A program made the translations under genes and the position numbers. Of a DNA stretch of 47,570 bases, positions 39,160-45,088 are shown one piece after another. The notes under the pieces were generated by a model that was given only the letters and a program-made list of their open reading frames with translations, was not told the origin of the DNA and did no database searches. This stretch comes from Fidelibacterota bacterium. Lineage in GTDB: Bacteria > Fidelibacterota > Marinisomatia > SCGC-AAA003-L08 > TS1B11. The first letter of the stretch is position 1, and each line of letters starts with the position of its first letter. Where the stretch lies: positions 1,571,608-1,619,177 of the forward strand of contig CP070787.1 in NCBI GenBank assembly GCA_020346745.1, read 5' to 3'.

Positions 39160-40260
39160 CTATACATTGAATTTGAAGAATATCACATCCCCATCCTGGA
39201 CGAGGTATTCCTTCCCTTCCAGCCCTACCAAACCAGCCTCGCGCACTGCCTTCTCTGAGCCCAGGCGCACCAGGTCAACGTAGTGAAATACCTCCGCTTT
39301 GATGAAACCGCGCTGAAAATCCGTATGAACTGCGCCTGCAGCGTCATAGGCGGTGGCACCCTGCTGGAACGTCCAGGCATGGGCTTCATTGGGATTACAG
39401 GTGAAGAAGGTCTGGTAACCCAACAGATCATAAGCGGCATGAATCAGCTTGGTCAAGCCCGCCTCGCGCAGATGATACTCCTCAACAAATGCCTCCCGCT
39501 CCGATTCATCCAACAAGGCAATCTCCTGTTCCAGCTTGCCGCATAACCGAACGGCCCGGTTATTCTCCCGGGCGGCAAAATTAAACAGCTCTTGCACCTG
39601 AGCTGCTCGCTCATCATGCTCCATCTCCTTCTCACCGACATTTGCTACGTACAGGATAGGCTTGCCGGTGAGGAGAAACAGGGATTGAAGCTGAGTCTGG
39701 CTTTCCGCTGGCAGACCCATCGCACAGACCATCCGGCCATCGTTCAACCCTTCATGTACACTCTCAAGCACAGTCAACTCCGCACGGGCCTCATGATCAC
39801 CACTGTCTGCCAGCTTCTTGACATGAGCTAACCGTTTATCAACTGACTCCAGATCCTTCATCAAGAGCTCGGTTTCTACAACCTCCGCATCTCTCACCGG
39901 GTCAATGTTGCCCTCTATGTGGCTGATATCGGGATCCTCAAAGCAACGCACAACATGTACCAGCGCATCCACTTCCCGTACATGCGCCAGGAACTGGTTG
40001 CCCAGGCCTTCACCCCGGCTGGCGCCCCGTACCAGCCCGGCAATATCAACGAATTCCACTGTGGCTGGGGTGACTTTACCAGGCTGGTAAATATGGGCCA
40101 ACTTATCCAGGCGCGCATCCGGGACGGGGACGACACCCAGGTTGGGATCAATGGTACAGAAGGGGTAGCTCTCAGCGGGTACCTGAGACGCCGTCAGCGC
40201 ATTAAAGATGGTAGACTTGCCCGCATTAGGCAAGCCGATAATACCGCATTGCAGGGTCAT
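39160..40260 (-). CDS. ychF: ribosome-binding ATPase YchF
   Basis: Obg-family NTPase (OLA1 orthologue) that prefers ATP and associates with ribosomes; 366 residues, normal length. P-loop [15 protein letters not shown] (9-23), switch [21 protein letters not shown] (hydrophobic residue where Ras has Gln, as in HAS-type NTPases) and the divergent G4 motif NVGEKE are all typical. A coiled-coil arm lies in the middle ([19 protein letters not shown]). The C-terminal TGS domain has [15 protein letters not shown] and ends [15 protein letters not shown]. It follows the selenoprotein candidate by 112 nt on the same strand. Confidence 0.97.
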
Positions 40261-40372: not shown

Positions 40373-41029
40373 TCAGGCCGACCCGCCGAGGCCCGCGGTT
40401 GCGAGAATGCGTTCGAGAAACTGAGCCTCCGGCAGGGCTCCATCCGCGGCACTATGCTCATTCGCTACTGTCTTGGGTACACCCCGAACACCATAGCGCT
40501 GACCAAGATGAGGAAATTCTGTGACCTCAACCATATCTGCTGTTACCATATCGCTCTCAAAGGCGAACTGATGGGCCAGGTGAACCACCTGGGGACAGTA
40601 GGGTCACGTGGGGGTCACGAATACCTGCAGGTGCAGCGGATTGGCCAGAGCTGCCAGCTTCTCCTGCGTGGCCTTGGACAGACCGGAATCGCCCCGGGAA
40701 ATCATGTCAATATCTTCCAATATGGTGACAAACTCGTAACCGGACGGAATGCCGTAGAAACGAATGCCCACATCCTTCTTACCCATGATCACGGTAGCAG
40801 GAATTTTGTCCACGCCGTAGGATTGGGCTTTGTCCTTGTCCTCAATGAAATTGAAAACATCAAGACTGATCAGATCAGATAGACCGGCCAATTCTTCCAT
40901 GATCTGCCGTGTCTCCGTGCAATAATCACACTCGATCGTCTGGGTGAAATTGACGAGCCTGACCGGGTCTTCAAGCTCAGCAAAGCGTTTACTGATCTCA
41001 TCTTTGATGGACTCATTCAGTAGTGTCAT
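40373..41029 (-). CDS. protein disulfide oxidoreductase with predicted selenocysteine at in-frame TGA
   Basis: Two tandem thioredoxin folds, 218 residues if TGA at 40606-40604 is read as Sec. Domain 1 has redox motif CDYC (Cys34, Cys37) and cis-Pro77 (DKIPATV). Domain 2 would begin LHLQVFVTPT, then Sec142-PYC145, and continue PQVVHLAHQF with cis-Pro185 (GVPKTV) and a final helix LPEAQFLERILATAGL. This matches the glutaredoxin-like PDO family, about 220-230 residues, with CxxC motifs near residues 35 and 146; here the first Cys of the second CPYC is TGA. Stopping at TGA would leave 141 residues ending just before the active site. A hairpin lies 11 nt downstream (40576-40592). AGGGGG precedes the ATG. 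No sel genes are in the window, so Sec insertion remains a prediction. Confidence 0.82.
40576..40592 (-). promoter_or_regulatory. bacterial SECIS-like hairpin
   Basis: Minus-strand CCAGGTG-GTT-CACCTGG, a perfect 7-bp stem starting 11 nt after the TGA; opening the top pair gives a GGUUC loop on a 6-bp stem. The UGA-to-loop distance of 18 nt and a G-rich loop start agree with known bacterial SECIS elements, whose minimal 17-nt stem-loop in E. coli fdhF also begins 11 nt downstream. The bulged U of the fdhF element is absent. Confidence 0.65.
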
Positions 41030-41121
41030 GATTATGCCCCCTGGTTAATGCATGCTCACTGGATCGGTATTTGCCCTTCGACTTGTTATGCTGATAATCA
41101 TACTTCACACCCCGTCAGGTG

Positions 41122-41868
41122 CTATCCCATTTGCCACTCCTCCGATAATAAGCTGCCTGCCGCTTCATCAATTAGAACCGTGGCGTGCTGGTGCATCTGC
41201 ACTATGGTGGCTGGCACCATAGCAGAAATCGGGCCTTCGATGGTGTTTTTAATAGCCTGGGCCTTGCCCTTGCCATTAGCCAGCATGATCAGCTTCCTGG
41301 CATCCATGATGGTGCCAATTCCCATAGTAATAGCATACTTGGGAACCTGGTCCATGTTGTCAAAGAATCGAGCATTGTCTTGGCGCGTTTTTTCCGTCAG
41401 CGTTTTAATCCGGGTCCGCGAACCGAGGGAGGACCCTGGTTCATTGAAGGCAATATGACCATTCCCACCAATTCCCAGAATCTGCAGGTCAATACCGCCA
41501 ACCTTGACAATCCGCTCTTCGTACCATTCACAGTGGGCCTCAACATCATCAGCCATGCCTTGTGGAACATGTACATAGCGGGGATCAACGTTGATATGCT
41601 TGAACAGGTTCTCCCACATGAAATAATGGTAACTCTGATCATGCCCAGGAGGAAGACCGACGTATTCATCGAGGTTGAAGGTAGTCACTTTCGAAAAATC
41701 AAGTCCCTCCTCAGCATGCATGCGGATAAGCTCTTTGTATAAGCCCAGCGGGGAACTGCCTGTGGCAAAACCCAAAATAGAGTCAGGTTTCTTCCGAACC
41801 TGCTCGGCAACAAGTTTGGCTCCTTCATTACTGATGGCATCGTAATCCTTTTTAATTACTAGAAGCAT
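41122..41868 (-). CDS. nagB: glucosamine-6-phosphate deaminase
   Basis: Converts glucosamine-6-phosphate to fructose-6-phosphate and ammonia in amino-sugar catabolism; 248 residues, typical of the shorter bacterial form. Motifs: LGFATGSSPLGLYKEL, TTFNLDEYVGLPPGHDQSYHYFM (catalytic Asp), GIGGNGHIAFNEPGSS (active-site Asn/Gly loop with His) and SRTRIKTLT. ATG 41868 has AAAGG 8 nt upstream. The PDO gene follows 92 nt downstream on the same strand and may share its transcript. No nagA or nagE is nearby. Confidence 0.96.
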   Translation of the reverse strand: MLLVIKKDYDAISNEGAKLVAEQVRKKPDSILGFATGSSPLGLYKELIRMHAEEGLDFSKVTTFNLDEYVGLPPGHDQSYHYFMWENLFKHINVDPRYVHVPQGMADDVEAHCEWYEERIVKVGGIDLQILGIGGNGHIAFNEPGSSLGSRTRIKTLTEKTRQDNARFFDNMDQVPKYAITMGIGTIMDARKLIMLANGKGKAQAIKNTIEGPISAMVPATIVQMHQHATVLIDEAAGSLLSEEWQMG

Positions 41869-43075: not shown

Positions 43076-43858
43076 TCAGATCAATTCCCAGCGCACCTGC
43101 CAGCGAGGATTCACCAGGCGGGTCATGAGCAGGAGGGTGGCGACCACCCCTGAGATCACGCCAGTCGTGATCCACATCATCATAATCACGATCTGAAACT
43201 TCACCGCTTCCACGGGTGGCAAGCCAGCCAGGATCTGACCGGTCATCACTCCCGGCAATTGTACCAGTCCGACTGTCATCAGCGCATTGATCGAGGGGAT
43301 TAGCGCACCTGAAACGGCGTTCTTGAAAGCGGGGTGCAGCGCCTTGCGCGGAGGAGCTGCCAACGACAGTGCTACCTCCACCGATGCCCGGCGCAGCTTC
43401 ATTTCACTGACAAAGCGGTTGGCCGACAGTGAAACAATATTAAGGCCGTTTCCCAGCACCATCCCGCTCAATGGGATCAATACGACCAGATTATACCAGG
43501 GATCAGGGCGAATGATCAGGAGGGCTACTACTCCCAAACTCACAATCAGCGCAAGTGACAGGGTGATGCTCGTAATGAGAAAAAGGCCAGGCAGCCTGGA
43601 CTGTTGCCGTCGTACACTCTCATAGCTGGCCACCGAGATCATCACGATAAGAACTGCCAGTAGAAGCCAGGGTGAGTTGACTTGGAACAGCACCTTCAGT
43701 GCAAAACCGATCAGTGTGAGCTGAGCAAACGCTCTGACGGTACCGATGGCCAGGCTCCGCTCGATACCCAATCCCTCGAGACGGGAAAGAGCAATAGCCA
43801 CAGCCATAAGGATAAGCGAAATGGCTACGTCACCAAAACCGAGGTGGAATAGTGCCAT
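43076..43858 (-). CDS. fetB: FetB/UPF0014-family ABC iron exporter permease
   Basis: 260-residue polytopic inner-membrane protein of the YbbM/FetB family: seven hydrophobic segments, with conserved RAFAQLTLIGFALKVLF, VLIVMISVASYESVRRQ, LIPLSGMVLGNGLNIVSLSANRF and the loop AALSLAAPPRKALHPAFKNAV-type sequence, then SINALMTVGLVQLPGVMTGQILAG. E. coli FetAB exports iron under oxidative stress; related plant proteins carry other metals, so the metal is not certain. It overlaps the ATPase stop by one base (TAATG), so the two form one transporter. Confidence 0.92.
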   Translation of the reverse strand: MALFHLGFGDVAISLILMAVAIALSRLEGLGIERSLAIGTVRAFAQLTLIGFALKVLFQVNSPWLLLAVLIVMISVASYESVRRQQSRLPGLFLITSITLSLALIVSLGVVALLIIRPDPWYNLVVLIPLSGMVLGNGLNIVSLSANRFVSEMKLRRASVEVALSLAAPPRKALHPAFKNAVSGALIPSINALMTVGLVQLPGVMTGQILAGLPPVEAVKFQIVIMMMWITTGVISGVVATLLLMTRLVNPRWQVRWELI

Positions 43859-44505
43859 TACGAAAGACTTCTCAGCGTCCCTTCCGCCATCTCAAGTATG
43901 ACCTGGCCCAGCTTGCGGGCATGGGAGCGTCGGTGGGTTACAAATATGGTGAGAAATTCTTCCTGCTGACTTATCTCTCGGACCAACTCAAGTATACCAT
44001 CCGCCGTCTTGTCATCCAGAGCAGAGGTGGGTTCATCCAGCAGGAGAATATCTGGCTTTGTCACCAGGGTACGCGCCAGACAGACCCTCTGCTGCTGCCC
44101 CACACTTAGTTGAACTACTGTGCGATCGAGAAATGTATGGTCCAGGTGCACCATTTCCATCAACGTACTGAAGTCCGTATCGTTGCGTCGCGCAAACCGG
44201 GCAGCGAAGTCCAGATTCTCTCGGACGCTATCTCCCACAAAGGCCGGCGTTTGGAACAACATGCTGATACGGCGACGAACCTCCGAAGGATGAAGCATGC
44301 TGATATCCTGACCCTCCAGCAGAATCCTCCCCCGGTCAATTGAGGTCAGGTTGTTAAGCACCCGGAGAAGCGTTGTCTTGCCTATCCCGGACGCACCCAC
44401 GACAGCGTAAATGCTTCGCTCCCGAAACGAGAAAGAGCAATTCTTTAGAATGAAATCTGGTGGGGATTCAGAGTTGGACTTCCAAACCGAGTCCAGCGTC
44501 AGCAT
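43858..44505 (-). CDS. fetA: FetA-like ABC transporter ATPase
   Basis: 215-residue ATPase partner of the FetB-like permease. Walker A is VVGASGIGKTTLLRVLNNL, the Q-loop is SMLFQTPAF, the signature LSVGQQQRVCLAR differs from LSGGQ by a Val, Walker B is DILLLDEPTSALD, and the H-loop is IFVTHRRSHA. It begins 6 nt after the TPR lipoprotein stop, implying one transcript of TPR protein / fetA / fetB. Confidence 0.93.
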   Translation of the reverse strand: MLTLDSVWKSNSESPPDFILKNCSFSFRERSIYAVVGASGIGKTTLLRVLNNLTSIDRGRILLEGQDISMLHPSEVRRRISMLFQTPAFVGDSVRENLDFAARFARRNDTDFSTLMEMVHLDHTFLDRTVVQLSVGQQQRVCLARTLVTKPDILLLDEPTSALDDKTADGILELVREISQQEEFLTIFVTHRRSHARKLGQVILEMAEGTLRSLS

Positions 44506-44511
44506 AGGGGA

Positions 44512-44949
44512 TCAGTTGGGAAGCGATTCAGCTGAGGAACTGAGAGCCTCCAGGTTCTTCCGCTTCCGGATCATTTCCTGAAGGTTGTAATTCTCAGGTG
44601 TGGGACGCAATTCAAAGGTTTTCCCAGCCTCGATGAGAGCCAGCTCATACCAGTTCTTCTTGGCATAGGCGACGGCCAGGTTATAATGGGCACGGGCTAC
44701 GATATCCAGCTCCCGGCCTGACATGCGGCGCGGATCAGCCGGTAGTAAACGGACCACCTCCTTGAACTCGAGAATGGCGTCGTCCACCAGACCTTTCTGG
44801 TAATACCAGAGGCCCAGGTCAAGGTGGCGTTCTGGCTTATCACCACACCCCATGACCAGGAACAGAACTGTCAGCAGCAGTAGAACACGAGGAAAGTATT
44901 TCACGGTTGGGAGTCTAGATAGATAATGATTCATCCGGAAAAAGTTCAT
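44512..44949 (-). CDS. TPR-containing lipoprotein
   Basis: About 145 residues. A basic, hydrophobic signal (LSRLPTVKYFPRVLLLLTVLF) leads to the lipobox VMGC. Mature part: LGLWYYQKGLVDDAILEFKEVVRLLP and AHYNLAVAYAKKNWYELALIEAGKTFELRP, two clear TPR motifs, then a charged C-terminal helix. Such proteins act as binding scaffolds in the envelope; the partner is unknown. Start uncertain: ATG at 44949 or 44934, both lacking a good ribosome binding site. A longer in-frame reading to 45072 puts the signal too far in. Confidence 0.8.
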   Translation of the reverse strand: MNFFRMNHYLSRLPTVKYFPRVLLLLTVLFLVMGCGDKPERHLDLGLWYYQKGLVDDAILEFKEVVRLLPADPRRMSGRELDIVARAHYNLAVAYAKKNWYELALIEAGKTFELRPTPENYNLQEMIRKRKNLEALSSSAESLPN

Positions 44950-45088
44950 GGGTGATGATGAGAAATGCAAGTAAAAACAGGGAGCCTTATCATTCCCTTC
45001 GGGTTCTGAACATGGGCGCCCCGCATGTAAAAGTAAGTTGCACACCCCCAAAGGAGAATTAAGATCAGACAAGGTGAAAACAAGTCAT

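Follow-up and report, generated by a model that had tools for sequence, protein, structure and literature searches.

The window (the whole stretch of 47,570 nucleotides analysed here) carries on its minus strand a gene of the protein disulfide oxidoreductase (PDO) family, flanked by nagB and ychF. Translation of the minus-strand frame 41029..40373 gave 141 residues up to a TGA at 40606-40604, followed by 76 residues and a TGA stop. This is the frame given in the preliminary description, with a CDYC domain, the TGA directly after VTPT and 76 codons to the stop. The frame holds two CxxC-type motifs, one in each thioredoxin domain, namely CDYC and UPYC, the U standing for selenocysteine (Sec) at the TGA. 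The features of the locus are summarized in Table 1. The genomes compared are designated G000 (source genome), G001 to G003 (its congeners), and G194 and G195 (another family of the same phylum).

Table 1. Features at the PDO locus, in window coordinates.
Feature	Position	Strand	Basis
Predicted selenoprotein CDS, two-domain PDO, 218 residues, Sec at 142	40373..41029	-	translation, profile and structure matches
CDYC, active-site motif of domain 1 (residues 34-37), context ECDYCTE	40919..40930	-	translation
UPYC, active-site motif of domain 2 (residues 142-145)	40595..40606	-	translation, structure alignment
In-frame TGA, predicted to be read as Sec, position 1 of UPYC; context VTPT*PYCPQVVH	40604..40606	-	translation, alignment
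Candidate bSECIS hairpin CCAGGUG-GUU-CACCUGG	40576..40592	-	meets published bacterial bSECIS criteria
AGGGGG, ribosome-binding-site-like, 5' of the PDO ATG	41037..41042	-	sequence; inference
ychF, downstream neighbour; adjoins the PDO gene also in G001 and G002	39160..40260	-	profile match
nagB, upstream neighbour; adjoins the PDO gene also in G002	41122..41868	-	profile match

The TIGR02187 profile matched the read-through frame over residues 6-210 with 275.5 bits (cut-off 185). The PF13192 match (residues 133-209 of the same frame) spans the TGA, and both results bear out the second thioredoxin domain that had been claimed beyond it. The solved Pyrococcus PDOs 1j08 and 1a8l were alignable to residues 3-211, and their CPYC motif places a Cys opposite the TGA, in agreement with the earlier placing of the TGA at the first Cys of that motif. 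The mechanical list of open reading frames stops at 141 residues, the truncation that had been foreseen for automatic annotation; standard annotation ends the enzyme at this point and the second active site is lost. TGA also serves as a true stop in the window, as had been claimed, since 12 of its 35 likely real genes end in it. Other frames of the window likewise show a long open stretch, a TGA and a further long open stretch, and most of these are non-genes; what marks the PDO frame among them is that homology extends to either side of its TGA and is kept in other genomes.

The same in-frame TGA was found in the congeners G001 and G003, whose proteins are 76% and 69% identical to the PDO analysed here, and in G194 and G195. 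The column reads TGC in G002, and TGC or TGT in the other aligned full-length members of the phylum. Cys or TGA had been predicted for column 142, and one or the other was present in 21 of 21 aligned phylum members. All four other TGA genomes keep the downstream domain; relatives with a stop at this point and no conserved domain after it, which had been named as the case against a selenoprotein, were not seen among them. Downstream of the TGA, G000 and G001 differ at 44 third positions versus 14 first and second positions, and for these codons dN was 0.09 with dS saturated. Within the genus, the amino-acid identity downstream of the TGA equals or exceeds that of the upstream part. These comparisons show protein-level constraint on the 76 codons after the TGA.

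The published model of the bacterial SECIS (PMC13188914) describes a loop of 3-9 nt with a G within its first two positions and a stem of 4-16 bp, situated 16-37 nt from the UGA and having an MFE of -7.5 or below. The hairpin of the PDO gene has 7 bp and a 3-nt loop GUU with the G first, lies 18 nt from the UGA and has an energy of -9.7 kcal/mol. The model was passed by the hairpin alone in four of the five TGA genes; the hairpin of G001 has 5 bp at -4.3, and reaches -9.1 with the lower stem added. One of 15 Cys genes outside the TGA clade also passed, presumably by chance. Among the 1886 TGAs of the window, three had an equally stable SECIS-like hairpin, the PDO TGA being one of them, and such stability was seen at none of the 12 true TGA stops. 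A hairpin at least as stable as the observed one arose in 1.5-2% of the synonymous shuffles for G000, G003 and G002, in 21% for G001 and in about 10% for G194/G195 (9-21% overall for the latter three). The hairpin is in part a consequence of encoding QVVHL, residues that are themselves hairpin-prone, and it is therefore taken as support and not as proof. The apical GU of the hairpin loop belongs to a conserved Val codon. The three TGA carriers of the genus share an unchanged 5-bp stem, whose register is shifted by one base in G194/G195, hence base-pair covariation was unusable. The Rfam search at gathering score gave nothing in the window, a result that is uninformative for an in-frame bSECIS.

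A separate TGA in the window, at 44514-44512, lies between genes for a TPR protein and an ABC-transporter ATPase that share one frame at 43858-45072 (minus strand), and sits two codons before the ATG. A SECIS-like hairpin was looked for at this TGA and none was found, so the two are probably just adjacent genes.

The Sec machinery of the source genome was analysed by profile search, as the preliminary description had advised. The genes selA (513 bits) and selB (335 bits) were found in tandem at G000:C1 2870977-2874230, together with a tRNA-Sec of 72 bits to which ARAGORN assigned the anticodon tca (UCA). The fourth gene, selD, was not found in the G000 assembly either by profile or with a congener's SelD as query; the weak matches obtained presumably stem from related enzymes of that superfamily. 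A tRNA-Sec was present in five of five TGA carriers. The tRNA-Sec search of the six f23 genomes gave no match, and their complete aligned PDO genes carry Cys. Many carriers of Cys-type PDOs also possess a tRNA-Sec; the machinery therefore allows Sec and does not force it.

The selD gene is present in all three congeners with an in-frame TGA in its GxGUACKL loop, and in G001 and G003 a strong hairpin follows this TGA with the spacing found for the PDO hairpin. It directly adjoins korA in G001 and G002, and in G000 korA is truncated on its 5' side by exactly 100 consecutive N (G000:C1, about 2019263-2019362). The G000 assembly is a single scaffold of 3.11 Mb with 100-N runs in other stretches too and no N inside the window. 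Runs of exactly 100 N in a one-contig genome indicate that it is probably a gapped scaffold. As the run sits at the korA-side place of selD in two congeners, the simplest reading is that the missing selD fell into the assembly gap beside korA, although the run may instead be masking of some other kind.

The different explanations of the in-frame TGA were weighed against these data. A sequencing or assembly error, in which the real codon is TGC and the product an ordinary Cys PDO, would require one base only, and it gains from the TGC carried by G002 and from the source assembly being a MAG read as gapped. The TGA is however found at the same codon in four other genomes with clearly different nucleotide sequences and comes with Sec machinery and a SECIS-like hairpin, which makes an error highly improbable. 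The chance is just as slight that a real nonsense mutation has left a decaying gene or a working single-domain protein of 141 residues. Domain 1 has its own CDYC and the standard gene caller does end at 141 residues, but the downstream codons have stayed in frame and remain constrained at the protein level in G000, G001, G003, G194 and G195, and under decay the stop would not recur at one exact active-site codon. Readthrough of the UGA with another residue, by a near-cognate tRNA or as Cys, with selenium unused, is the least probable of the three; the selD not seen in the G000 assembly would speak for it, whereas selA, selB and tRNA-Sec are intact, a Sec-type selD occurs in the congeners, and the place of the absent gene coincides with the scaffold gap.

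The gene thus very likely encodes a PDO-family (TIGR02187) selenoprotein of the bacterial type, in which UGA 142 would specify Sec by means of SelA, SelB, tRNA-Sec and the downstream hairpin. The selenoprotein put forward in the preliminary description is supported by the machinery genes, the conserved TGA, the downstream constraint and the hairpin. The reading frame, its homology and conservation, the machinery genes and the suitable shape of the hairpin were observed directly; Sec insertion itself, its kinetic advantage and the substrates are inferred. SelA would make Sec-tRNA-Sec from selenophosphate and SelB would carry it; the hairpin 18 nt downstream would recruit the loaded SelB, and the ribosome would read UGA 142 as selenocysteine. 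The protein is predicted to be an oxidoreductase with two thioredoxin-fold domains, the first carrying CDYC and the second UPYC. Sec142 is most likely the attacking selenolate of domain 2 and Cys145 its putative resolving residue, and thiol-disulfide exchange would be expected to proceed faster than with Cys.

The maximum-likelihood tree of PDOs, a small tree in which the Sec/Cys position was masked, placed the five TGA genes and the Cys gene of G002 in one clade (100/100). G002 falls inside the genus clade (99/95) and pairs with G000 at weak support (82/53). Its PDO (L020:1471-2085) is an orthologue by position (nagB-PDO-ychF), and has TGC yet keeps the SECIS-like hairpin, with tRNA-Sec and a Sec-type SelD in the genome. 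One Cys-to-Sec switch and one reversal in G002 make two changes, and an ancestral Cys in G002 needs several independent gains; hence the tree favours the former. It is fairly probable that a single Cys-to-Sec switch occurred in the Neomarinimicrobiota PDO and that G002 later returned to Cys keeping the hairpin, the Sec machinery and the Sec-type SelD, a reversal read from one congener and a small tree. For the PDO family, a survey of 2006 counted two Cys-to-Sec events and zero Sec-to-Cys (PMC1794560). If the reversal is true, G002 would be a molecular fossil of a change of which that survey recorded none. The genus also offers a natural Sec/Cys pair (G000, G001 and G003 versus G002) for probing the role of Sec in PDO.

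The name of TIGR02187 in NCBIfam is PDO_seleno_TRX, and the find is less surprising because UxxC members of this family are already catalogued as selenoproteins. Sec-type PDOs were earlier reported in Carboxydothermus and Symbiobacterium (PMC1794560) and in Asgard Borrarchaeales (PMC11227280). In the literature searched, no description of a Sec-type PDO in Neomarinimicrobiota and no biochemical study of this predicted selenoprotein family, now extended to that phylum, was found. The gene is a well-supported new lineage entry, from an uncultured phylum, in a known selenoprotein family. The known Sec-type PDOs resemble it in belonging to TIGR02187 and having one Sec in a UxxC motif, and differ in host phylum. 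The N-terminal domain of AhpF (1zyn; TIGR03140) shares the tandem thioredoxin folds, but its match is far weaker and the protein here stands alone, without the flavoprotein part. The Cys-type PDOs (1j08 and 1a8l of Pyrococcus, 2ayt of Aquifex) share two thioredoxin folds, two CxxC motifs and a full-length alignment, whereas in the protein here Sec would replace the initial Cys of CPYC in the C-terminal domain.
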